Assembly (NCBI GenBank): GCA_028679855.1
Contig: JAJRAP010000173.1
Coordinates: 1 to 11,941, forward strand
Direction: 5' to 3'
DNA length: 11,941 nucleotides
Source: Candidatus Methanoperedens sp.
Lineage (GTDB): Archaea > Halobacteriota > Methanosarcinia > Methanosarcinales > Methanoperedenaceae
Shown here: positions 55 to 11,715 of the stretch, piece after piece
Numbering within the stretch: the first letter of the stretch is position 1
Layout: each line of letters begins with the position of its first letter
Translations under genes and position numbers: made by a program
The notes under the pieces: model-generated
What the model was told of the DNA's origin: nothing
What the model saw: only the letters and a program-made list of their open reading frames with translations
Databases searched by the model: none

Positions 55-1470
55 TTAACGCGCCAGCGTCATGATCCCTTCAGTATATCCTTCGTTGCGC
101 GCAGCCACATTTATCGTCCCGGTGCCAGAGGCTGAAAGTTGCAGTGTCACCTGACCGGCAGTGTTCGTCATACCATCTGCTGTGATGCCGCCGCCATACA
201 CGCTCACAGTTGCACCGCTCACAGGATTATTGCTGCTTTTTACTGTAAAAGTTACAAAAGTAGCCACGCCGTTCGTGACATTGGAAGGAGACGCGCTCAC
301 GCTGAGGGTCTGCTGACCGACCGCGGATAACGTGGTGCTGCCAGCAGTGAATCCTGTCCTTGCCGCTGTCGCAGTTATTGTGCCAGGTCCGGCCGGATTT
401 ATCTGTATGATAGCGATGCCGTTCAGGTTCGAAACTCCATTCCCGCTCGCTGCTCCAGTGAGCGTTACCGTGGCTTCGCTGATGAAGTTATTGTCGCTTT
501 TCACGGTAAATGTCACGAAGGTAGGAGTTGCTGCTGTTATTGATGATGGGGATGAAGAAACTGACAGCGATTGAGTGCCTGTAGAGGTGATCGTGCTTGA
601 TCCGCTCACGAAACCAGTCTTGATCGCAGATACCGTTATGGTGCCAGTCGTGTGTGGAGTCACTAAAATGATCGTCTTTCCATCCGGGTTTGTGATACCG
701 TCTCCGGTTGCTGCGCCGCTTATGCTTATTCCTGCATCAGCAACAGGAGAACCTCCAGCCGTTACTGTAAATGTTACATATACCGGCACATTGACAATGA
801 GCGTATTGTGGCTTGCAGAAACGCCCAGTACCTGCTGGCTTGTCGATGTTAGAATAGCAGAACCGTCAGTATATCCTTCTTTTATTGCGGTTACAACAAC
901 TTTTCCTGTGCTCGGAACATTGAGCTGCTTTATGACCTGACCACTGGGATCTGAAATTCCTTCAAAAGATATACCAGCTCCTGAAATATTTATCACAGAT
1001 CCTGCAACAGGTTTGCCCATGCTCATTACCGTAAATGTCACAAAAGTATCTATTCCAGAGGTTATTGAGGATGGTGAAGTGCCCACATCCAGCTTTGGTG
1101 TGGCTGTAATAACTGAAGTAGCATTTTGATAATCCGGTCTTGACGCCAACACACTAATGCTGCCGTTTGTTGTTGCATTCACCGCAAGCTCAAGCATTCC
1201 ATTTTCATCTGTTGTTCCGCGACCTGCTGCAGCACCTGAAAGCGTGATATTTACATTGCCCAGTGCGGCGCTCTTGCTTATAGTTATGAACTTGACATTT
1301 GTTATCTTGCCTGCACCGATATTGTCCGGAATGCTTATTACGTTCAACTGTGGAGATGCCGGTAAAACAATACCGATTATTCCGTTAAAACCGGCTCCAA
1401 CAATAAGTCCTCCTATCAATGCAATAGCAATAAAAACCCTTGTATTACTGTCGTCATCGTATCCTCGCAT
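55..1470 (-). CDS. Membrane-anchored surface protein with five tandem Ig-like repeats
   Basis: The 471-residue protein starts with a short charged segment (residues 1-11, RGYDDDSNTR) and one hydrophobic, glycine-rich helix (about 12-37) that should act as a signal anchor. The rest is five tandem beta-rich repeats at about 41-125, 126-213, 214-300, 301-387 and 388-471. The motif VTFTV recurs at 144, 232, 319 and 406, a period of 87-88 residues. Each unit also has a G-x-x-x-x-x-x-G turn and a closing GYT/GFT-like strand, typical of invasin/carboxypeptidase-regulatory Ig-like folds. There are no cysteines and no C-terminal PGF or other sorting signal, so anchoring is probably only N-terminal. 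The start ATG has GGAGG eight bases upstream and a TATA box at 1513-1521. The role is probably cell-surface or adhesive. The ligand is unknown, and family assignment within the Ig superfamily is uncertain. Confidence 0.85.
   Translation of the reverse strand: MRGYDDDSNTRVFIAIALIGGLIVGAGFNGIIGIVLPASPQLNVISIPDNIGAGKITNVKFITISKSAALGNVNITLSGAAAGRGTTDENGMLELAVNATTNGSISVLASRPDYQNATSVITATPKLDVGTSPSSITSGIDTFVTFTVMSMGKPVAGSVINISGAGISFEGISDPSGQVIKQLNVPSTGKVVVTAIKEGYTDGSAILTSTSQQVLGVSASHNTLIVNVPVYVTFTVTAGGSPVADAGISISGAATGDGITNPDGKTIILVTPHTTGTITVSAIKTGFVSGSSTITSTGTQSLSVSSSPSSITAATPTFVTFTVKSDNNFISEATVTLTGAASGNGVSNLNGIAIIQINPAGPGTITATAARTGFTAGSTTLSAVGQQTLSVSASPSNVTNGVATFVTFTVKSSNNPVSGATVSVYGGGITADGMTNTAGQVTLQLSASGTGTINVAARNEGYTEGIMTLAR
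58..1350 (-). repeat. Five tandem ~260-bp coding repeats (Ig-like modules)
   Basis: The coding sequence consists of five in-frame modules of about 255-264 bp. They are visible on the plus strand as recurring antisense copies of the VTFTV-encoding segment near 240-255, 500-520, 765-780 and 1025-1040. The last four modules are the most alike. The first (residues 41-125) is more divergent, with VKFITI in place of VTFTV. Such arrays can change copy number by recombination. Confidence 0.75.
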
Positions 1471-2743: not shown

Positions 2744-3160
2744 TCACATGATCAGCACAGGTTTGGTGGCATCCCGTGTGAACATTATCGGATACAGGTT
2801 CAGTATGGAGAGAAGGTCGCCTTTTTTTATCTCCCCCGATTCATGTCCGACTACAAAAGCGGTGTTGACGACGCGGTCGGTTTCCATGAGCGCTGGGCCG
2901 CTGCTGGTTCCCACCTTTATGACAGATACTAAAGGATGCTGATTGAAAGCGCAGGGGACTGCTATCATGTCTTTCTGCACTTTAATATCCTTAACTCTTA
3001 CACGCTCAAATTTGCCTGCCCCGATGGTAACATCATCATTAGCTATTATCATCTCCCACTTTGCTCGTGTGGCTATAGTATATTCATAGGGGGATGCCTT
3101 CATTTTTTTTCTTATAATTTTCCCGTTGTCACTTGTGACAATATTAATGATTTCACTCAT
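2744..3160 (-). CDS. Archaeal conserved protein, probable DUF22 family
   Basis: The 138-residue soluble protein has no signal peptide or membrane segment. It resembles the archaeal DUF22 family as I recall it, with features such as YEYTIATRAKWEMIIA (about 26-41), a VTIGAG-F-RV segment, AVPCA (about 67-71) and a C-terminal GDLLSILNLYPIMF stretch. The family has no known function and the assignment is from memory, not a search. There is one cysteine (about residue 70) and no Fe-S motif. The start ATG has AAGGAG about six bases upstream and is 10 bases behind the preceding HdrA-like gene, so it is the last gene of the Hdr operon. A run of eight A in the codons for Arg-Lys-Lys-Met (about 3106-3113) is a possible slippage-prone site. 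An accessory or assembly role with the Hdr proteins is only suggested by position. Confidence 0.75.
   Translation of the reverse strand: MSEIINIVTSDNGKIIRKKMKASPYEYTIATRAKWEMIIANDDVTIGAGKFERVRVKDIKVQKDMIAVPCAFNQHPLVSVIKVGTSSGPALMETDRVVNTAFVVGHESGEIKKGDLLSILNLYPIMFTRDATKPVLIM
2822..2828 (+). terminator. Possible oligo-T terminator for the plus-strand HdrD-like gene
   Basis: Seven consecutive T residues occur on the plus strand about 107 bases after the HdrD-like stop codon, inside the antisense of the DUF22-like gene. There is no T run in the 28-base space between the two convergent genes, so this is the first plausible stop signal. If used, the two 3' ends would overlap as antisense RNA. The evidence is weak. 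Confidence 0.25.
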
Positions 3161-3170
3161 AATTCGCTCC

Positions 3171-4910
3171 TTATGCTTTTATGCGGTCGTATATATATGC
3201 TCCAGGTTGTTGAAACGCCTTTATGGTGGCCATAATCTGTGGTAAAGTGAAATGATTCGGGGTGATCGCCCCTGCGGGACATCCTGCAGCACACGTCCCG
3301 CAGCCCTTGCATAAAGCGGGATTGATATACGACTTCCTCGTGATGTACGAAACTTCCTCTGCCACAACCGTCTTCTCATTCATCGAAGCAGCCCGGTAAG
3401 GACAGATAGAGGCGCAATAGCCGCATCCTATACACTTTGTCTCGTCCACAACTGCTGTGATGGCTTCAGCCTGCACGTAGCCGTTCATAAGCGGTATTGC
3501 CGCTCTGGATGCCGCAGAATAACCCTGGTTGATGCTCTCGATTATATCTGCTGGAGCCCTTGCGCTTCCGCACAGGAAGATACCGTCTGTTGCAAAATCA
3601 ACAGGTCGAAGTTTCACATGAGCCTCAAGGAAAAACCCATCCTGACCAAGCGGAACCTTCAGCATCCTGGAGAGGTCGCCGTTCTCGGGATGCGGGATGA
3701 GCGGCGTGGACAGCACTATGATATCGGGCGTATATTCTATCTCCCTGCCCATGAGTTCATGATACAACTTCACCCGCATTCGTTCTCCATCAACAGTAAC
3801 CTCCGGAGGCTTCTCCTTTGAATACTTTCGAAACCCTACCCCCAGTTCCTGGGCTTCCCTGTACATCTTCTCATACGTACCGTAGGCGTGAATACCGTTG
3901 TGAAGTATGTTGATATCAGCTTCAGGGAACGTCTGCTTCAATAATTTCGAGTTCTTTATCGCCACGTTACAGCAAATCCTTGAGCAGTATGACCGCCCCT
4001 CTCCTCTTGAACCCACGCACTGGATAAAGATCGCACTGTCCAGTTTTTGCAATGACCCGTTTTTTAATCTCTCTTCGAGTTCAAGCTCGGTGAGCACGTT
4101 ACCGCTGCCACTGTACCCATAGAGGTTAACAGGTTTAAATTCATCTGCTCCCGTTGCAACTACTATGATTCCAGTCTTGATGTCAAGCGGCACTTTTTCG
4201 TTCTGTACCGAAACCGTAAAGTTTCCTATATACCCATCCACCTTTTTAATGGTTGAAGACGTATGTACTTCAATCTTCGGGTGGTTTTTCACCTTCCCGA
4301 TGAACTCGTCCATGACCAGAGACGCCTTCCTTCCCCCGGGATACAGATCGTTAAGATACCGCAGCATTCCCCCCATTTCACTATCCTTTTCGACAATATC
4401 CACCTTGAACCCCTGATTCGCAATAGAAAGAGCAGCGGTCATGCCTGCAATCCCCCCTCCTATGACGAGCGCAGAGGGCGTGACGCTAATCCTGATCTCC
4501 TCCTGCGGCTCAAGCAGTGCAGTCCTTGCCACACCCATCCTTATAAGGTCTTTGGCTTTCTGGGTGGCTGCTTCCTTTTCCTTCATATGCACCCAGGAGC
4601 AGTGCTCCCTTATGTTCACAAGCTCGAAAAGGTAGGGGTTGAGCCCTGCGTCTGCCACGGCAGAGCGGAAAAGGGGTGCATGCGTCCTGGGTGTACATGA
4701 TGCCACGATTACCCTATTGAGATTGTGGTCTTTGATGGCTTTTTTTATCGCGGTAAGACCATCATCGGCACAGGTATATGTATTTCTCTCGGCATGGACA
4801 ACGCCAACCAGAGTCCTGGCGTATTCCACAACGCTGGGTACATCCACATACCCTCCTATGTTGGTGCCGCAATGGCATACGAATACTCCAATCCGGGGTT
4901 CATCTTTCAT
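3171..4910 (-). CDS. HdrA-like flavoprotein lacking the inserted ferredoxin domain
   Basis: This 579-residue HdrA paralogue has the N-terminal HdrA Fe-S domain (Cys12/14/47/72, in CHCGTN and SCTPR contexts). A thioredoxin-reductase-like FAD domain follows (GGGIAG at 151-156; IQCVGSRG further on). A C-terminal ferredoxin domain has two [4Fe-4S] motifs (Cys493/496/499/503 and Cys534/537/540/544). Compared with the full HdrA at 7750-9714, it lacks the CSAC pair after the second FAD motif, replaced by an LYPGGRKAS segment. It also lacks the whole inserted ferredoxin. It should move electrons between FAD and a partner docking at the C-terminal ferredoxin. Its start overlaps the stop of the short HdrA-like gene as ATGA, with AGGAGGTG seven bases upstream, so 1:1 synthesis with that protein is likely. 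The N- and C-domain content recalls QmoB, but no MvhD domain is fused. Confidence 0.9.
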   Translation of the reverse strand: MKDEPRIGVFVCHCGTNIGGYVDVPSVVEYARTLVGVVHAERNTYTCADDGLTAIKKAIKDHNLNRVIVASCTPRTHAPLFRSAVADAGLNPYLFELVNIREHCSWVHMKEKEAATQKAKDLIRMGVARTALLEPQEEIRISVTPSALVIGGGIAGMTAALSIANQGFKVDIVEKDSEMGGMLRYLNDLYPGGRKASLVMDEFIGKVKNHPKIEVHTSSTIKKVDGYIGNFTVSVQNEKVPLDIKTGIIVVATGADEFKPVNLYGYSGSGNVLTELELEERLKNGSLQKLDSAIFIQCVGSRGEGRSYCSRICCNVAIKNSKLLKQTFPEADINILHNGIHAYGTYEKMYREAQELGVGFRKYSKEKPPEVTVDGERMRVKLYHELMGREIEYTPDIIVLSTPLIPHPENGDLSRMLKVPLGQDGFFLEAHVKLRPVDFATDGIFLCGSARAPADIIESINQGYSAASRAAIPLMNGYVQAEAITAVVDETKCIGCGYCASICPYRAASMNEKTVVAEEVSYITRKSYINPALCKGCGTCAAGCPAGAITPNHFTLPQIMATIKAFQQPGAYIYDRIKA

Positions 4911-6205
4911 ATATACGCACCTCCTGCCACTTCAGTTGCCCTGGCAGCGGCTCCACTCCCCTGCGCAACTGATTCAGGAATGTCCTTGGGCGACTGGCAA
5001 TATCCTGCTATAAATACCCCGGGTCTTCTGGTATCAAGAGGTGCAGTCAGCTCATCCCTGCTCTTGTAGAGACCGTATTCGTCAAGTTCAATATCCAGAA
5101 TGGCAGCGAGTTTATCGCTGCCTTTTGCAGGGATGAGGCTTGTACAGAGCACAGCCATGTCGACCTCAAGCCCTTTTACCTTTCTGTTGACTGTATCGTC
5201 ATACCACACGGTCAACGTCTTTGTGCTGGCATCCTCAGTGATCTGCCCGGGACGGCCTCTTATGTACTTTATCCCGTATTCCTTTTCACCTCTTACTGCA
5301 TATTCCTCAAACCCCTTTCCTACTGCCCTCAGGTCTGTATAAAAGATATAGGGCTTTATGTCCTCATAATGCTCTCTGGCGAGGATGGATTCTTTTATGG
5401 CATGCATGCAGCATACACTGCAGCAGTACGGATTGTGCTGCAGGTCTCTTGATCCAACGCACTGGATAAAAGCTATCTTACCTGGATGCTCCTTATCTGG
5501 CGCGGTCTCAAGATGCCCCCCTGTTGGCCCTGAGGCGCATATCATTCGTTCATATTCCATGGCTGTGATCACATTTGCGTACTTTCCATACCCGTACTCC
5601 TGCATGTGGGTCGGGTCGAACATGTCGAATCCTGTCGCCACTATCACAGCCGCAACGTTGAGATCTACAAAGGTGTCCTTCTGTTCATAATCCACTGCAC
5701 CAGCATTGCAAACCTTTTTGCAGTTACCGCATTTTCCCTTAGTGAGGTATATACAGTGCTCTCTGTCAATGGTCATTACCCTGGGGACTGCCTGCGGATA
5801 AGGCAGGAATATGGATTTCCTTTTATCGAGGTTGCCGTTGTATTCATTGGGTACTTTTGACGGGCACTTGGCGGTGCAATCCCCGCAACCTGTGCATTTC
5901 TCTTCATTGATGTATCTGGCTTTCCGCTGTACCCTTGCCGTGAAGTCTCCTGCATTGCCGCTCAGGTCCATTACTTCGGAATAAGACAGTATATCGATAT
6001 TGGGATGCGCATTGCACTCGTTCATTTTAGGAGCGAGTATGCACATCGAGCAGTCGTTTGTCGGGAAGGTCTTATCGAGAAGAGCCATATGTCCTCCTAT
6101 ACTCGGTTCCCGCTCCACAAGATAGATATGGTAACCCCGGTTGGCAAGGTCGAGCGATGATTGGATTCCGGCTATTCCTCCCCCTATCACAAGCACGCTT
6201 TTCAT
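4907..6205 (-). CDS. Short HdrA-like flavoprotein (FAD domain plus inserted ferredoxin only)
   Basis: The 432-residue protein begins directly at the FAD-binding domain (GGGIAG at 8-13), so the N-terminal HdrA domain is absent. It keeps the Cys52/55 pair, with Cys64 nearby, and the inserted ferredoxin with two [4Fe-4S] motifs (Cys104/107/110/114 and Cys151/159/162/166). IQCVGSRD and a CCSVCC segment of the second half also remain. It ends right after the FAD domain (IAGYCQSPKDIPESVAQG), without the C-terminal ferredoxin. This is complementary to the next gene's product, and the pair together carry every HdrA domain. QmoA of sulfate reducers is a comparable short HdrA. The start at 6205 is preferred over an upstream in-frame ATG at 6238 because AGGTGA sits five bases before it, the protein then begins like other FAD domains, and the gap to the HdrD-like stop is one base. 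Confidence 0.9.
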   Translation of the reverse strand: MKSVLVIGGGIAGIQSSLDLANRGYHIYLVEREPSIGGHMALLDKTFPTNDCSMCILAPKMNECNAHPNIDILSYSEVMDLSGNAGDFTARVQRKARYINEEKCTGCGDCTAKCPSKVPNEYNGNLDKRKSIFLPYPQAVPRVMTIDREHCIYLTKGKCGNCKKVCNAGAVDYEQKDTFVDLNVAAVIVATGFDMFDPTHMQEYGYGKYANVITAMEYERMICASGPTGGHLETAPDKEHPGKIAFIQCVGSRDLQHNPYCCSVCCMHAIKESILAREHYEDIKPYIFYTDLRAVGKGFEEYAVRGEKEYGIKYIRGRPGQITEDASTKTLTVWYDDTVNRKVKGLEVDMAVLCTSLIPAKGSDKLAAILDIELDEYGLYKSRDELTAPLDTRRPGVFIAGYCQSPKDIPESVAQGSGAAARATEVAGGAYI

Positions 6206-6206
6206 T

Positions 6207-7340
6207 TCATTCACCTGCCAGCGCCCTGCATGCGGCAACAGTCAGATCCACCACAGGGATATCGACTTTTTCCTTCTCCACCGGTATCTGGTTGTGAACA
6301 GCGCACCTGAAATGGATAAGGCATTTTGGACAGGACGTGACAAGCATATCAGCCCCTGTGGATTTTGCCTCAATGAGCCTTTCTATCTGCATCAGTTTGG
6401 AATTACCTTCGCATGTTGCCCAGGCGCTCACGCCGCAGCAGGAAGATTCTTCTCTGTTCTTATTCATTTCTACCAGTTCTCCCATGCTCTTTATTACCTC
6501 TCTCGGGGCGTCGTATATCCCCATATGCCGCCCCAGCCGGCAGGGATCCTGGTATGTCATAATACCAGCCCTGTTTAATTTAATATCATTATTCTTGATG
6601 AGCGATGAAATAAATTCAGAGATATGCACTATTTCTATATCAGTACCTTCAAAGAAATCCGCATAGTCGAGCTTCAGTGTCCTGAGACATTCAGGGCACG
6701 AGGTCACTATTCGAGAAGCACCACTTTCCTTTATCATCTCGATGTTCAATCTCGCAAGTTTCTGGAAGGTTTCCACGTTGCCTGTCCATAGGAGGTCATG
6801 ACCGCAGCAGCGTTCGTTGGGGGAGACCACAGGACTTATGCCTGCTTTATTCAGTATCTTGACCGTGCTCCTTGCAATTTCGAGGGGATTAACAAACCCT
6901 GAGAAAAGGTTCTCAAAATAAGGGAGACAGCCGGTGAAATACAATACTTCCCCTTCAGTTGAGGTTTTCAGGTCGTCCGAGATCCATTGAAGTCTATTCT
7001 GAACAATGTCCCTGTATGATTGCACCCTCTGGATGGAATGCAGCAGACCGCCCTGAGAACACCTGCTTGTGTATCCGGAATTGAATGCCGATGACCTCAT
7101 GCCGCGAATAAATTCGGAAAATTTCACTGTGGATGGACACTTTGTTGTACAGGCTTCACATGTCAGGCAGGTCCACAGTTCCCTGTCCCCCTCGATCTCT
7201 CCTTTCATCCCTGAAAGGGCTCTTTCTACTATTACCCTGGGGGAGAAACCTTCATTGACCCTTGCTACAGGGCACGACCCTGAACATTTCCCGCATTCCA
7301 CACAGTAATACGCTTTTGTCCTCTTTATTATCTGTTTCAT
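6207..7340 (-). CDS. HdrD-like heterodisulfide reductase-type subunit (HdrC-HdrB fusion), second copy
   Basis: The 377-residue soluble protein has two [4Fe-4S] motifs (Cys13/16/19/23 and Cys58/61/64/68). A linker of about 65 residues is followed by two complete CCG domains: Cys138, Cys178-Cys179, Cys215/218, and Cys267, Cys301-Cys302, Cys337/340. This is the HdrD layout without a membrane partner. CCG domains hold the non-cubane clusters that cleave CoM-S-S-CoB in HdrB. Here the true substrate is inferred and could be another disulfide. Its ATG overlaps the MvhD stop as TAATG, with GGGAG seven bases upstream, and the next gene begins one base after its stop. The genes behind it encode two HdrA-like proteins, so it is probably their catalytic subunit. 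It is a paralogue of 1684-2715, with a longer linker between Fe-S and CCG parts. Confidence 0.9.
   Translation of the reverse strand: MKQIIKRTKAYYCVECGKCSGSCPVARVNEGFSPRVIVERALSGMKGEIEGDRELWTCLTCEACTTKCPSTVKFSEFIRGMRSSAFNSGYTSRCSQGGLLHSIQRVQSYRDIVQNRLQWISDDLKTSTEGEVLYFTGCLPYFENLFSGFVNPLEIARSTVKILNKAGISPVVSPNERCCGHDLLWTGNVETFQKLARLNIEMIKESGASRIVTSCPECLRTLKLDYADFFEGTDIEIVHISEFISSLIKNNDIKLNRAGIMTYQDPCRLGRHMGIYDAPREVIKSMGELVEMNKNREESSCCGVSAWATCEGNSKLMQIERLIEAKSTGADMLVTSCPKCLIHFRCAVHNQIPVEKEKVDIPVVDLTVAACRALAGE
6211..6216 (-). promoter_or_regulatory. Ribosome binding site deciding the short HdrA-like start
   Basis: AGGTGA on the minus strand lies five bases before the ATG at 6205. No comparable motif precedes the in-frame ATG at 6238, which would add eleven residues (MPHAGRWQVNE) unlike any HdrA N-terminus. 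The site overlaps the last codons of the HdrD-like gene, linking their translation. Confidence 0.6.
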
Positions 7341-7753
7341 TATCTCACTCCCAATAGATTGGGACCAAGTTCTTTGATCTCTTCTACAAATTCTTTTACA
7401 GTACTGGCGAATTTCATCCCTTCACTGGCTGAAATCCACTCCAATCTCACTCTTCTGGGGTCAAGCCCCAGGGTCTTCATAACTCTGAGGAGCGTCTCGA
7501 CCCTCTCCTGAGCTTTCTTATTTCCTGAGACATAGTGGCAGTCGCCGATGTGGCAACCGGCGACCAGCACACCGTCAGCTCCGAGTTCCAGCGCTTTCAG
7601 TATATAGGAGGGAAAAACCTGACCGGAACACATCACTCGCATAATCCTGATATTATCGGGGTACTTCAATCTGCTTGTGCCTGCAAGGTCTGCGCCCACA
7701 TAGCTGCACCAGTTGCAGCAGAAAGCCACAATCCTTGGAGAGAATTCTGTCAT
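7340..7753 (-). CDS. mvhD: MvhD-like [2Fe-2S] electron-transfer subunit
   Basis: The 137-residue protein belongs to the MvhD/FlpD family, which in methanogens carries electrons from MvhAG hydrogenase or formate dehydrogenase into HdrA through a [2Fe-2S] cluster. The family cysteines are present: Cys12-Cys13 and Cys16 (CCNWCSY), Cys42 (RVMCSG), Cys67 and Cys72 (GCHIGDCHY), with GADGV before the last pair. Two usual residues differ: the family's CSGRVDP reads CSGQVFP, and CHPGDC reads CHIGDC. Its start overlaps the HdrA stop as ATGA, with GGGAGGTG about four bases upstream, so it is coupled to HdrA. No hydrogenase or dehydrogenase gene adjoins it, so the electron source must be encoded elsewhere. 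It could also serve the second HdrA pair, since it lies between the two modules. Confidence 0.93.
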   Translation of the reverse strand: MTEFSPRIVAFCCNWCSYVGADLAGTSRLKYPDNIRIMRVMCSGQVFPSYILKALELGADGVLVAGCHIGDCHYVSGNKKAQERVETLLRVMKTLGLDPRRVRLEWISASEGMKFASTVKEFVEEIKELGPNLLGVR

Positions 7754-9714
7754 ACTGCACCTCCCAGCGTGGCATCAAGCATGGCAAATGTAATGCTGTC
7801 GGTATAATTGCGAAGCTTGATTGAGCCGTTACAGCATGCCACAGCACATGCACCGCAGCCTTTGCATATTGCTGGGTTTATTCTTGCCACTTTGTGGGTG
7901 TCGAGGGTTACAATCTCAATAGCTCCATACTCGCATACATCCTTACAGTCGCCGCAGCCCCTGCACAGCCTCTCATCGACTTCAGAAATCAGCGGAGAAA
8001 GCTGCAGTGTCTTATGCGAGATAACTTCAAGGGCGCCTGATGCCGCCCCTTTTGCCTGTGCGACCGTGTCAGGAATGTCCTTGGGACCCTGTGCTGTCCC
8101 GGCAAGGAATACGCCATCAACAAGTGTGTCCACAGGCCGGAGTTTTGCATGCGCTTCCATGAAGAACCCGTCCGGGCTGGCAGCCAGCCCAAGCATCTTC
8201 TGGATCTTGGAAGAGTCAGACCTCGGAATCATCCCCACCGAGAGCACCACCATATCCAGTTCGTTCTCGGTGACCATGCCAAGCAGCGTATCGTCTGCAC
8301 GTATGACAGGATTTCTGCTCTTTTGCTCTTCGAAAATCTCTGCAACCCTGCCGCGCATGAATTTGATTCCGTTTTCCTGAGCACGCTTGTAAAACTCTTC
8401 GTAGCCTTTGCCAAAAGCCCTGATATCGATATAATATATAAATATCTCGCTTTCAGGATGGTGCTCCTTTATAAGAAGGGCGTTTTTTATGGCATACATG
8501 CAGCAGACCCTTGAGCAGTATTTATTGGCATGCTCGTCCCTTGACCCCACGCACTGCACAAATGCAATTCTTTTCGGAATCGCTCCATCCGAAGGTCTCA
8601 CCACTTCTCCCTTAGTTGGACCGGCTGCATGCAGGAGCCTCTCAAGCTGGAGTCCTGTGATCACGTTCCTGTATATCCCGAACCCGTACTCTTCTTTGGA
8701 GACGGGGTCAAACGGGTCAAATCCCGTAGCAACGACCACAGCCCCGATTTCTTCTTCGATGAACTCATCTGTGCGTTCATAATCAATAGCGCCAGCCGGG
8801 CACACCTTCTTGCATACCCCGCATTTTCCTTTCGTTATATATAAGCAACTGGCCCTGTCAATCACTGGAATATTGGGAACAGCCTGCGGGAACAGTGTGT
8901 ATATCGCTTTTCTTTTTCCCATCTTCTCATCATATTCACTCGGCACTTTTGTGGGGCATTTTTCCTGGCATAAACCGCATCCCGTGCAAAGACTTTCATC
9001 CAGTCCCCGCGATTTTTTCCTGATCTTTGCCTTGAAATTGCCTATAAATCCCGAAATCTCCTCTACCTCTGAGTAGGTGAACAGCTTTATCCTGGGATTT
9101 AAGGAGACCTCCACCATTTTGGGGGTCAGTATGCAGGCAGAGCAATCAAGCGTGGGGAAGGTTTTTCCAAGCTGGGACATCCTGCCGCCTATGCTCTGCT
9201 CTTTTTCCACCAGGACAACATCAAACCCTATATTCGCAATGTCAAGAGATGTCTGTATTCCTGCTATCCCTGCTCCTATGACAAGAACGCGCTGGATGAC
9301 ATTTGCGGATAAACTTGTCAGCGGCTCATCCATCCTCACTTTTGCCACTGCCATCTTTATAAGGTCAAGGGCTTTATCTGTGGTCTTCTCTTTATCCAGA
9401 TGCACCCATGATGCCTGCTCCCTGATATTTGCAATCTCTAAAAGGAAGGGATTGAGCCCTGCGCTGGCAAGCACCTTCTTATATGTATTTTCGTGCATGC
9501 GGGGTGAACATGCCGCCACCACTACCCTGTCGAGATTCCTGTTTTTGATATCTTCCCTTATCAGGTCCTGTCCCGGTTCTGAACACATGTACTTGTAGTC
9601 CTTAGCAAGAGATACGTCTTTTAATTTCGCAACCTTTTGTGTCAGTCCCTCCACATCGACAACACCGGCTATATTCGTTCCACAGTGACAGATATAAACA
9701 CCAATATTTGTCAT
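7750..9714 (-). CDS. hdrA: Full-length heterodisulfide reductase subunit A (FAD, iron-sulfur)
   Basis: The 654-residue protein has the normal HdrA length and all four parts. These are the N-terminal Fe-S domain (Cys9/11/44/69), the FAD domain (GAGIAG 147-152, Cys191/194 in CSAC), the inserted ferredoxin (Cys243/246/249/253 and Cys290/298/301/305) and the C-terminal ferredoxin (Cys584/587/590/594 and Cys617/620/623/627). In methanogens HdrA carries the FAD that bifurcates electrons between ferredoxin and the CoM-S-S-CoB disulfide. In methane oxidisers the reaction would run in reverse. There is no in-frame TGA, so it is a cysteine form and not a selenoprotein. The ATG overlaps the HdrB stop as ATGA, with GGAGG six bases upstream. 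Its start contains the conserved GVYICHCGTN segment, confirming the N-terminus. HdrB, HdrC and MvhD partners are adjacent. Confidence 0.97.
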   Translation of the reverse strand: MTNIGVYICHCGTNIAGVVDVEGLTQKVAKLKDVSLAKDYKYMCSEPGQDLIREDIKNRNLDRVVVAACSPRMHENTYKKVLASAGLNPFLLEIANIREQASWVHLDKEKTTDKALDLIKMAVAKVRMDEPLTSLSANVIQRVLVIGAGIAGIQTSLDIANIGFDVVLVEKEQSIGGRMSQLGKTFPTLDCSACILTPKMVEVSLNPRIKLFTYSEVEEISGFIGNFKAKIRKKSRGLDESLCTGCGLCQEKCPTKVPSEYDEKMGKRKAIYTLFPQAVPNIPVIDRASCLYITKGKCGVCKKVCPAGAIDYERTDEFIEEEIGAVVVATGFDPFDPVSKEEYGFGIYRNVITGLQLERLLHAAGPTKGEVVRPSDGAIPKRIAFVQCVGSRDEHANKYCSRVCCMYAIKNALLIKEHHPESEIFIYYIDIRAFGKGYEEFYKRAQENGIKFMRGRVAEIFEEQKSRNPVIRADDTLLGMVTENELDMVVLSVGMIPRSDSSKIQKMLGLAASPDGFFMEAHAKLRPVDTLVDGVFLAGTAQGPKDIPDTVAQAKGAASGALEVISHKTLQLSPLISEVDERLCRGCGDCKDVCEYGAIEIVTLDTHKVARINPAICKGCGACAVACCNGSIKLRNYTDSITFAMLDATLGGAV

Positions 9715-10607
9715 TTCCTTCCTCCATTGATCTTATCCAGCAGCGATTGTGCAGGAATGTTTTGAAATTCAAGTCCAAGCTTTTTCTGTTCCATTCCGAG
9801 GCCAAGTCCGATCAGCTGTGTGAAATAAAGCACTGGAAGGCGGAATTCTTCGCCGTATATCTTTTTTATCTCCGCCTGGCCCCTGTCGAACTCGAGATGG
9901 CATGACGCACACTGATCAACGATGCAGTCTCCGCCTGCCAAGATGATGTTTTTTAGTTTTTCTCGTGTAAAATCAAGGGTCACATCGATATCTTTGGCAC
10001 GAACGCCGCCCCCAAACCCGCAGCACATTGTTTTGTCCTTATAATCTATACTCTCAGCCCCCGTAGCTCTGACGATATCATCAAGGAATCTGGGCCGCTC
10101 TGAACTTCCATGCTTCTTTATTTCAGATGGTTTAAGGAAGTGACATCCATAGTGGGTGCATACCTTTATACCATCGAGAGTATTTTTCATCGACTCCTGT
10201 ATTTTTTTTACTCCGATATCCTCAGAAAAAACCTCAATCATGTGTTTTATTTTTGAGTTCCCCTTGAATTCGCATCCCACCTTTGAGAGGATTTCATTGA
10301 TTTTGTCCTTCAGCTCCTTATTTCCATTCAGGAGATGGTTTGCCTCGGCAAGCGAGCCGTAACAGCCGTTGCACATGGTCACTATATCCTGCCCCGTCTC
10401 TTCCCCGATTGCTATGTTCCTTGCCGCGATTGCAAGCCATGATTCAAGGTGAAAACAACTGAAAACACCCGGCGCAGGACAGCACGACGCCCCGTTTATC
10501 GGGAGAAGTTCTATATCAAAATATTTCAGTATGCTGGTAGATGTGGCTTCGATTCCAGGATAACGGTTCGGGATTATACACCCAAGAAAAGTGGCGTACT
10601 CTTTCAT
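9711..10607 (-). CDS. hdrB: Heterodisulfide reductase subunit B (two CCG domains)
   Basis: The 298-residue protein has the length and motifs of true HdrB, the subunit that reduces (or, in reverse, forms) CoM-S-S-CoB on two non-cubane [4Fe-4S] clusters. The first CCG domain has Cys10, Cys42-Cys43 (SCCPAPG) and Cys79/82. The second has Cys155, Cys195-Cys196 (CCGFGGG) and Cys233/236. The C-terminal LPVLYFTQLIGLGLG segment is typical of HdrB. It differs from the HdrD-like proteins here, which read CCGVS at the second site. Translation starts at an ATG overlapping the HdrC stop as ATGA, with GGGGGAG three bases upstream. With HdrC and HdrA it should form the soluble cytoplasmic HdrABC complex. Confidence 0.97.
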   Translation of the reverse strand: MKEYATFLGCIIPNRYPGIEATSTSILKYFDIELLPINGASCCPAPGVFSCFHLESWLAIAARNIAIGEETGQDIVTMCNGCYGSLAEANHLLNGNKELKDKINEILSKVGCEFKGNSKIKHMIEVFSEDIGVKKIQESMKNTLDGIKVCTHYGCHFLKPSEIKKHGSSERPRFLDDIVRATGAESIDYKDKTMCCGFGGGVRAKDIDVTLDFTREKLKNIILAGGDCIVDQCASCHLEFDRGQAEIKKIYGEEFRLPVLYFTQLIGLGLGMEQKKLGLEFQNIPAQSLLDKINGGRK

Positions 10608-11185
10608 ATTCTCCCCCGAAGTTCCATAGTCTCCCAGTTAAACCCAACTATCTCATCAAAACCAGTGAGTCTCAATACTTCCTGAACTGACCTGAGCGCC
10701 TCGGGGAATGAATGAGTGGTGGGAGGAAGCCGGTTGAGCCCGAGTTCAACCCTCTGTTTCTGGACTTCCTCATTGGCAGGCACCCCGTGCCCTGTCTTGA
10801 ACACATAACTTGCGGTCATCCTGTGGGCATCCGCCATATAGCCCTCGCGCACTGCCATATTGCGCAGAACCCTTATGATGTCTGTGGTTTTTACACCTCT
10901 CGGACACCTCTCATAACACGTATAGCAGGTGGTGCAGAGCCAAAGATCGTCACTTCCGAGAACACTGTCCTTAAAACCGAGAGACGTCTCTCTAAAAATT
11001 TTCCGGGTACGGAAAGCTGTCCTTCTGCCTGATGGGCAGCTCCCTGTACAGCAGCCGCACTGGATGCACAACTCGACGGAACGCAGCACGTCTTCACCGA
11101 AAATCTTTCTCCCACTCTCCACGAACTCATCAATAAAACCGCTATTTAAATCATTGATCCGGATAATGTTCCTTGTAATAGGCAT
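10604..11185 (-). CDS. hdrC: Heterodisulfide reductase subunit C (two [4Fe-4S])
   Basis: HdrC relays electrons from HdrA to HdrB. From the ATG at 11185 the protein has 193 residues. The two motifs are CIQCGCCTGSCP (Cys40/43/46/50) and CTTCYTCYERCP (Cys84/87/90/94), followed by the typical HdrC helical tail with GHGVPANEEVQKQR and LGLNRLPPTTH. The length matches soluble HdrC. A GTG at 11194 would add three residues and overlap the V4R stop as GTGA, but it has no ribosome binding site. The ATG at 11185 has GGTGAT four bases upstream and is preferred. The V4R gene ends 5 bases before this start, and HdrB overlaps the end. No membrane segments are present. Confidence 0.94.
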   Translation of the reverse strand: MPITRNIIRINDLNSGFIDEFVESGRKIFGEDVLRSVELCIQCGCCTGSCPSGRRTAFRTRKIFRETSLGFKDSVLGSDDLWLCTTCYTCYERCPRGVKTTDIIRVLRNMAVREGYMADAHRMTASYVFKTGHGVPANEEVQKQRVELGLNRLPPTTHSFPEALRSVQEVLRLTGFDEIVGFNWETMELRGRI

Positions 11186-11189
11186 GTCA

Positions 11190-11195
11190 ATCACC
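11190..11195 (-). promoter_or_regulatory. Ribosome binding site deciding the HdrC start
   Basis: GGTGAT on the minus strand includes the V4R stop codon (TGA) and lies four bases before the ATG at 11185. The competing GTG at 11194 is inside this motif and is preceded by TTAAACCAATGTTCTG, which has no pairing to 16S rRNA. This supports ATG as start and couples HdrC translation to the V4R gene. Confidence 0.55.
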
Positions 11196-11715
11196 AGAAC
11201 ATTGGTTTAATAAGAAATTCGCAGTGGTCATCTCCCCTGCTTTCACAGCGAACTTCATCGCACCTCAGAGCTTCCATCCCAAAAGCCACCTCTACGAACC
11301 CGCAGAGGTATCCCCTGGTAAAATAGCAGACCGGGTCATCGGATTTTTTTTGATACTGCCGGGATTCGAAGTTATTGTGAACTGTTATTCTTATTTCAGT
11401 CTTATCTACGTCCTCTTCTATACTGTCGAGATAGAGCCACCCAAACCTGGAGAACTGTTTCTTGTATGCCTCGATCACTTCGTCTTTGTTTCTGAAGTCC
11501 CACCATTTTTTCATGGTCGCTACCCCCTGCCTCCCTGCCTCATATCCAGCATGGTAGAGCAGGCTCTCCCCCCGCCTTCCAAGCACTGTCACCAGTTCTT
11601 TATGTATCATCCCGAAAGTTTTCTTGCTCATGAGAATAACAGGGACATCTGAAACTCTCACATCTGCGGTCATATCATCAAATGTTATCCTGAAAGCCTC
11701 TTCCAGCAACTTCAT
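11191..11715 (-). CDS. V4R-domain protein at the head of the Hdr operon
   Basis: The 174-residue soluble protein ends in a V4R (4-vinyl reductase-type) domain, about residues 110-170. It is recognised by FTRGYLCGFVE (132-142) and the metal- or ligand-site motif C157-ESRGDDH-C165-EF. Other cysteines are at 130, 138 and 152. The N-terminal part (1-105) has a YHAGYEAGRQG segment (54-64), normal for small-molecule-binding V4R proteins. V4R domains are known in archaeal regulators, in bacteriochlorophyll and phenol-response proteins, and in TRAPP-like folds, where they bind hydrophobic ligands. None of that fixes the function here. Its ATG overlaps the zinc-finger gene stop as ATGA, with GGAGG eight bases upstream, and hdrC begins 5 bases after its stop. 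A ligand-sensing or regulatory role for the operon, or an accessory role for the Hdr complex, is inferred. Confidence 0.85.
   Translation of the reverse strand: MKLLEEAFRITFDDMTADVRVSDVPVILMSKKTFGMIHKELVTVLGRRGESLLYHAGYEAGRQGVATMKKWWDFRNKDEVIEAYKKQFSRFGWLYLDSIEEDVDKTEIRITVHNNFESRQYQKKSDDPVCYFTRGYLCGFVEVAFGMEALRCDEVRCESRGDDHCEFLIKPMFW

Follow-up and report, generated by a model that had tools for sequence, protein, structure and literature searches.

A short and a long HdrA with complementary domains as a probable heterodimer in Candidatus Methanoperedens

Because the HdrA subunits of the solved Hdr complexes are identical, a single flavin or cross-subunit ligand in them cannot be altered alone. 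An 11,941-nucleotide stretch of DNA from Candidatus Methanoperedens sp. (hereafter the window; contig JAJRAP010000173.1, assembly GCA_028679855.1) raises the question of whether two unlike HdrA-type proteins, encoded by neighbouring genes, take the place of such a dimer. The short protein, S (432 residues; positions 4907..6205, minus strand), carries the thioredoxin-reductase-like (TrxR) domain that binds flavin adenine dinucleotide (FAD), the pair Cys52/Cys55 and an inserted two-cluster ferredoxin, and lacks the N- and C-terminal iron-sulphur (Fe-S) domains. The long protein, L (579 residues; 3171..4910, minus strand), carries the N-terminal Fe-S domain, the TrxR/FAD domain and a C-terminal two-cluster ferredoxin, and lacks the cysteine pair and the inserted ferredoxin. 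Together they hold one complete HdrA Fe-S domain set, and their genes overlap as ATGA. These features had been described in a first-pass annotation, which also proposed a heterodimer; residue-level alignment agrees with the domain content given for both proteins, and the overlap was verified. The analysis presented here indicates that S and L probably make up a single obligate heterodimer in place of the HdrA homodimer.

Domains, clusters and the cross-dimer ligand

The ligands kept by the two proteins follow the domain boundaries. S retains Cys52 and Cys55, the inserted-ferredoxin cysteines 104, 107, 110, 114, 151, 159, 162 and 166, and the TrxR-domain cysteines 249, 261, 265 and 266. L retains the N-domain cysteines 12, 14, 47 and 72, the TrxR cysteines 298, 309, 313 and 314, and the C-terminal ferredoxin cysteines 493, 496, 499, 503, 534, 537, 540 and 544; it has Lys195 and Leu198 at the positions of the cysteine pair. 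Aligned to the PDB entry 5odc, S covers residues 146-562 and L covers residues 2-236 and 315-647, and with the alignment offset of 142, Cys55 of S corresponds to HdrA Cys197. Its codon lies at 6041..6043 on the minus strand, counted from the ATG at 6205 that gives 432 residues; an upstream TTG would give 443. Identity to the 654-residue full-length HdrA of the same operon is 49.7% (213/429) for S and 41.0% (228/556) for L, and S and L share 33.7% (111/329) over their common core.

Two features absent from the first-pass list are common to both proteins, namely the TrxR-domain cluster and the equivalents of Glu356 and Lys409 (E219/K271 in S, E279/K319 in L), which are proposed marks of a bifurcating HdrA (Lyu et al. 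2025, PMC12054007). With the FAD/TrxR core, this residue pair and the four-cysteine TrxR cluster, both would by their sequences belong to the HdrA superfamily. Neither qualifies as a canonical HdrA: the best NCBIfam match, hetero_SS_HdrA2 (NF040770), gives 540 bits for S and 551 bits for L against a cut-off of 1100, which the 654-residue HdrA (899 bits) likewise does not reach, and both proteins score lower still against the higher cut-offs of NF041778 and NF041891. The complementarity exceeds chance, the same ligand pattern being found with few exceptions in 269 units of S and 182 of L. The possibility that S and L are degraded copies was rejected, since every ligand of the retained domains is intact in each.

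The position of Cys197 bears on the pairing of the two proteins. In the solved HdrA homodimer this residue, one of the ligands of the N-domain cluster, comes from the opposite protomer (Chadwick et al. 2022, PMC9012536). Within the pair, the ligand is present in S, and the N domain that Cys197 serves is found only in L. Cysteine or selenocysteine occupies the position in 266/269 S units, 0/182 L units and 20/20 units of full-length HdrA, counts that are not thinned and include the source S and L twice (from the contig and from the protein database). After clustering at 70% identity the figures are 83/86, 0/74 and 8/8, and per locus, with TGA kept apart, they are 58/60 for S (43 Cys and 15 in-frame TGA), 0/59 for L and 18/18 for the full-length form. 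Seven units of other domain make-up stood outside the classes of the per-locus count (three with an N domain and no C domain seen, two with an N domain and inserted ferredoxin but no C domain, and two with neither N domain nor inserted ferredoxin). Locus L011 was excluded from the Cys197 and the TrxR/Glu-Lys counts as a copy of L112, and the S class does not include frames holding T1 alone or T1 plus inserted ferredoxin (L023, L035, L049, L050) or broken frames (L030, L043).

Selenocysteine at this position was read from the in-frame TGA alone. Such a TGA falls exactly at the Cys197 position of the short HdrA in 15 units from 12 loci (L012, L015, L016, L018, L019, L021 and L024-L029), labelled Deltaproteobacteria, Desulfobacterales, Desulfobacteraceae, Desulfobacula or Syntrophobacteraceae, and likely encodes selenocysteine as the cross-dimer ligand; CxxU is already known as a selenoprotein motif of HdrA (PMC13188914).

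Co-inheritance of the short and long forms

Protein-database searches, in which about 8,000 candidates were scored and the best 120 listed, showed that the two forms also occur as one polypeptide. All 88 fused proteins (985-1,030 residues) among the 120 best matches listed for L have the S half first. Similarly, L matches the second half of a single open frame of 981-1,090 residues in 45/60 relatives (source genome included), and S, where listed, matches the first half of those frames, one of which (in G016) has an internal stop. The source genome itself carries, alongside the split pair, a fused paralogue (L118) on contig C205 with its own MvhD and full-length HdrA as neighbours. On alignment, S and L correspond, as separate proteins, to the two halves of a fused HdrA of about 1,010 residues.

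Where the two forms are separate, their genes are nearly always adjacent. At E <= 1e-110 the long form was found in 39/196 genomes of the phylum sampled; 59 matches were listed and 28 loci checked for a partner, and 16 matches of 905-991 residues in family f10 were not checked singly. Separate L genes occupy 14 of the 28 loci, with S upstream on the same strand in 13/14 and the contig of the 14th ending about 220 bases upstream. In the remaining 14 loci the frame of L also contains sequence of the S half, which at L147 is split in two frames. The short-form search, at E <= 1e-147, gave 20 matches, and the 19 loci examined comprised 15 separate and four fused forms; each separate S had L downstream (15/15), with gaps of about 400 and 840 bases in two cases. 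These E-value limits confine the adjacency counts to near relatives. An HdrD-like gene precedes S in 12 of the 15 separate-S loci (two by weak similarity, about 80 bits), and the order HdrD-like, S, L also occurs in L012, L021, L025, L026 and L028, which carry Syntrophobacteraceae, Deltaproteobacteria or Desulfobacterales labels.

In a tree of 99 units, 16 separate L group at support 90, and 22 fused L group with one separate L at 97. Similarly, 23 separate S group at a moderate support of 82 and 21 fused S at 98, and five fused units (three S, two L) fall outside these groups; those separate proteins that came from the protein database have no gene context. A recent fission of a fused HdrA was rejected as the origin of the pair, as S and L alike divide into parallel groups of separate and fused units, and the split pair thus looks old rather than the product of a recent break.

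Variants of these arrangements were also seen. Locus L114 (5790-7493) holds a long HdrA, beside MvhD, that lacks a short partner and falls inside the fused clade, as if the short half had been lost. At L184 (5493-8201) a fused HdrA variant of 903 residues has no visible inserted ferredoxin in its first half, and frames of 905-991 residues in the family of L184 may resemble it. An HdrD-like frame of 898 residues with an extra stretch resembling HdrA T1 lies upstream of a split S-L pair at L186 (5618-8311). Loci L119 and L127 show a different tandem HdrA layout, in which one form has three of the four N-domain cysteines and the inserted ferredoxin but no C-terminal domain, and the other has Arg-Cys at the position of the pair; the neighbour in L127 is in pieces.

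Short forms without a partner provided a natural control. In the archaeal family f10, a full-length HdrA encoded behind MvhD has lost its N- and C-terminal domains in one branch. No long form was seen in the wider flanks of seven f10 short-form loci, of which L212 lies on a contig ending about 130 bases downstream. The f10 orthologue group comprises 22 loci, and its 13 full-length members all keep Cys197. Among the nine forms with domain loss, Cys197 is gone in seven, and the 12 inserted-ferredoxin and TrxR cysteines and the Glu/Lys pair are intact in all nine. In two of the nine, L212/L220 and L222, at most about 220 bases of contig follow downstream, so the absence of a partner is not established for them. 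This pattern suggests that Cys197 is needed mainly for holding an N-domain cluster. Since S has no N domain and still keeps Cys197, it should bind a partner that has such a domain, for which L is the candidate.

Arm, core and competing explanations

Cryo-electron microscopy of a methanogen Hdr complex showed that the N- and C-terminal domains of one HdrA form an arm on the FAD of the other HdrA (PMC12350162). One legend of that paper assigns HA3 to the HdrA C terminus and another assigns HA1,2 to the N terminus; the cysteine count would suggest the reverse, and both domains belong to the same arm regardless. As this arm works in trans, and as both of its domains are on L and the inserted-ferredoxin exit is on S, L would be the arm and S the bifurcating core, the pair corresponding to one half-site of the homodimer. 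Electrons would enter via MvhD and pass through the C-terminal ferredoxin of L to the FAD of S. The high-potential electron may leave via the TrxR-domain cluster of S to the HdrD-like protein, and the low-potential electron may move through the N-domain cluster of L, completed by Cys55 of S, to the inserted ferredoxin of S. In metabolism of the type found in anaerobic methanotrophic archaea (ANME), the flow may be reversed (confurcation).

A tentative extension, which may well prove wrong, is that HdrD-S-L forms a one-armed bifurcase, split along the boundary between arm and core, in which the FAD of S alone bifurcates and the FAD and cluster of L are freed for another task. That task could be a link to the upstream HdrABC-MvhD, giving serial two-stage bifurcation or confurcation. 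If true, the one-armed bifurcase would amount to a naturally occurring half-site mutant that allows the two HdrA flavins to be distinguished and changed singly. More generally, the natural S-L pair would place donor arm and bifurcating core in different genes, so that the proposed trans electron path could be tested one subunit at a time. Pairs of S and L, split or fused, occur in several archaeal and bacterial groups, so that the question concerns the balancing of ferredoxin, thiols and mid-potential carriers in many anaerobes.

Several observations weigh against the heterodimer or the division into arm and core. The first-pass annotation had taken the common occurrence of each form alone as a sign against pairing, and among the 60 relatives there was one clear lone L (G059:C45:5820-7487) and one truncated case, an L without its N-terminal end on G026:C135 with no S in 3.2 kb upstream; an S fragment lies at the end of another G026 contig. 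Short forms without a long partner do occur, in the single archaeal family f10, where they belong to an orthologue group of full-length HdrA and have mostly lost Cys197. Two of these nine forms retain Cys197, and on the tree their domain loss is a single event, with two changes at Cys197, so that it counts as one replicate and not nine and a sign test is powerless. Cys197 is also missing from three of the 269 S units: the partner in L022 is short of one N-domain cysteine, the partner in L119 retains all four, and L034 looks like a misassigned second half. The arm/core assignment is based on homologues rather than on the S-L protein. L itself keeps Glu356/Lys409 in 171/182 units and the TrxR cluster in all but two, and with its FAD site and cluster conserved, although no inserted-ferredoxin exit is present, L is more than just an arm and may be a second site of bifurcation. 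Finally, the operon also encodes a full-length HdrA, which is another possible partner for S or L. Taken together, the fusions, the near-constant adjacency, the Cys197 trans-ligand pattern and the parallel tree groups support, at the level of sequence, the heterodimer that the first-pass annotation had proposed. Its further claim of two different flavins was not borne out, because the residues linked to bifurcation are both kept in both subunits.

That conservation is the basis of the strongest competing explanation, in which the S-L heterodimer forms but both flavins bifurcate in series as a two-step bifurcation or confurcation. The Glu356/Lys409 equivalents are present in 269/269 S as well as in most L units, the TrxR-domain cluster is retained in both, and Lyu et al. 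(2025, PMC12054007) argue that bifurcation could occur at both TrxR domains of type II HdrA and that two bifurcation steps could result from a second HdrA together with HdrD. However, under the trans-arm model the FAD of L would have neither an arm, as S lacks the N and C domains, nor an inserted-ferredoxin exit, and of the 11 L units that deviate from the exact pair, eight have Asp in place of Glu, which mildly suggests relaxed constraint. We consider serial bifurcation rather unlikely.

It is improbable that S and L each pair with the 654-residue HdrA of the operon as mixed dimers and not with one another. That protein does have the N domain and the cysteine pair, but S is fused to L in every one of the roughly 1,000-residue fused proteins described above, and tandem S-L genes occur with no full-length HdrA seen in the stretch examined (e.g., L185, L012 and L016). 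Least probable of all is mere linkage of the two genes, with S and L acting independently and S forming a homodimer without N and C domains: the f10 short forms behind MvhD (seven loci; nine in the orthologue group) offer a precedent, but they are orthologues of full-length HdrA that have mostly lost the Cys197 ligand kept by S, and no separate S lacked an adjacent L (0/15).

Known systems and the surrounding locus

The idea of a heterodimer for tandem HdrAs is already in print, and the S and L classes and their fusion are already catalogued. Chadwick et al. (2022, PMC9012536) proposed heterodimers for tandem ANME HdrA (5/6 and 12/13), described a fused HdrA 3/4 and HdrD-like genes in HdrA clusters, and noted the same complementarity in Moorella HdrA. 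S and L share with those tandem proteins the adjacent genes and the complementary N domain and Cys197. The fusion order differs, as the N-domain half comes first in HdrA3/4 of that paper and second in 88/88 fused proteins here, and the cross-phylum count, the partnerless control and the arm/core reading were not met with in its accessible text. Lyu et al. (2025, PMC12054007) described clusters with HdrA, HdrD, HdrBC and MvhD and catalogued the HdrA classes A6 and A12 as well as type II, a fusion of A6 and A12. S fits class A6, which is HdrA1 minus the N-terminal Fe-S and C-terminal ferredoxin domains, and L, compared by description, fits class A12, which resembles the C-terminal region of type II; like the second half of the fused HdrAs, L has the N, TrxR and C-terminal ferredoxin domains and no inserted ferredoxin. 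The accessible text of that paper stresses two bifurcation sites and does not use the word heterodimer. The S-L locus is thus a new and conserved instance, to which the present analysis adds how widely the two forms are inherited together, the counts of ligands, the control at Cys197 and the assignment of arm and core. The arm/core reading was not found in print in a literature search largely without subscription papers, in which bifurcation by a mobile arm appeared only in PMC12350162.

The homodimeric HdrA structures 5odc, 7bkb, 8rvu, 8rvv and 9sfi belong to the same fold family (E-values 1e-108 to 1e-150), but unlike the split S-L pair each solved HdrA is a single chain of about 650 residues with all domains, present as two identical protomers. 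By sequence, the solved relatives were these five all-domain HdrAs and 6tjr, and QmoA gave one weak match, to a thioredoxin reductase.

QmoA/QmoB, named in the first-pass annotation as the known parallel, holds up as one at the domain level but not as the closest relative, the fused HdrA being much closer. In two sulfate-reducer genomes, QmoA (a 433-residue frame) is of the S type, with Cys at the Cys197 position by eye, and QmoB (frames of 782 and 784 residues) is of the L type, with no Cys there; their order is that of S and L, next to QmoC. By eye, QmoA keeps one complete inserted-ferredoxin cluster, and QmoB lacks the TrxR-domain cluster and has an added MvhD-like C terminus. Their similarity to S and L is remote (about 275 and 130 bits). 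The QmoAB complex is defined by the neighbouring membrane subunit QmoC, and none of the ten region proteins scanned exceeded the cut-off for qmoC. Membership of S and L in Qmo was rejected from gene context, their neighbours being HdrD-like, HdrBC and MvhD proteins.

The window is the whole of contig C65 in a 1.68-Mb, 77%-complete assembly. On its minus strand, genes run in the order V4R-HdrC-HdrB-HdrA(654)-MvhD-HdrD-like(377)-S(432)-L(579)-DUF22. Directly upstream of S, the HdrD-like protein of 377 residues (6207..7340) is of the HdrC-HdrB fusion type, with two four-cysteine ferredoxin motifs and two complete CCG motifs. It is preceded by MvhD/FlpD (137 residues; 7340..7753; PF02662, 4.9e-55), the candidate electron entry, and by the full-length HdrA of 654 residues (7750..9714), which has all ligands including the cysteine pair 191/194. 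HdrB (298 residues; 9711..10607) scores 418 bits against TIGR03288 (cut-off 345) and HdrC (196 residues; 10604..11194) scores 225 bits against TIGR03290 (cut-off 160). A V4R/XylR_N-like protein (11191-11715) lies directly upstream of HdrC and has the same neighbour in loci L114 and L116.

The closest relative with gene context, another Candidatus Methanoperedens sp. contig (S 82% identical), has the identical order from HdrC through L, and no V4R match was seen at that locus. The complete run from V4R to L also occurs in G059 and G035 (another family, same order), the G035 contig stopping within L. McrA (PF02249) was not found in the source assembly at its level of completeness. Besides MvhD, no hydrogenase or FdhAB gene was present among the ten region proteins scanned, and the sole hydrogenase match in the source bin was a partial, hydrogenase-like one of 25 bits.

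Three further genes of the window were noted. After L, on the same strand, comes a DUF22 protein (2744-3160), for which phmmer against open frames of at least 90 residues showed no counterpart in L112 or L114. A second HdrD-like protein (343 residues; 1684-2715), with two complete CCG motifs, is encoded on the plus strand, opposite to the operon, and its relatives lie near Hdr genes in L112, L115, L118 and L186. Lastly, a repetitive protein, Ig-like by eye (55-1470, minus strand), has a homologue (532 bits) close to the corresponding operon of L112.

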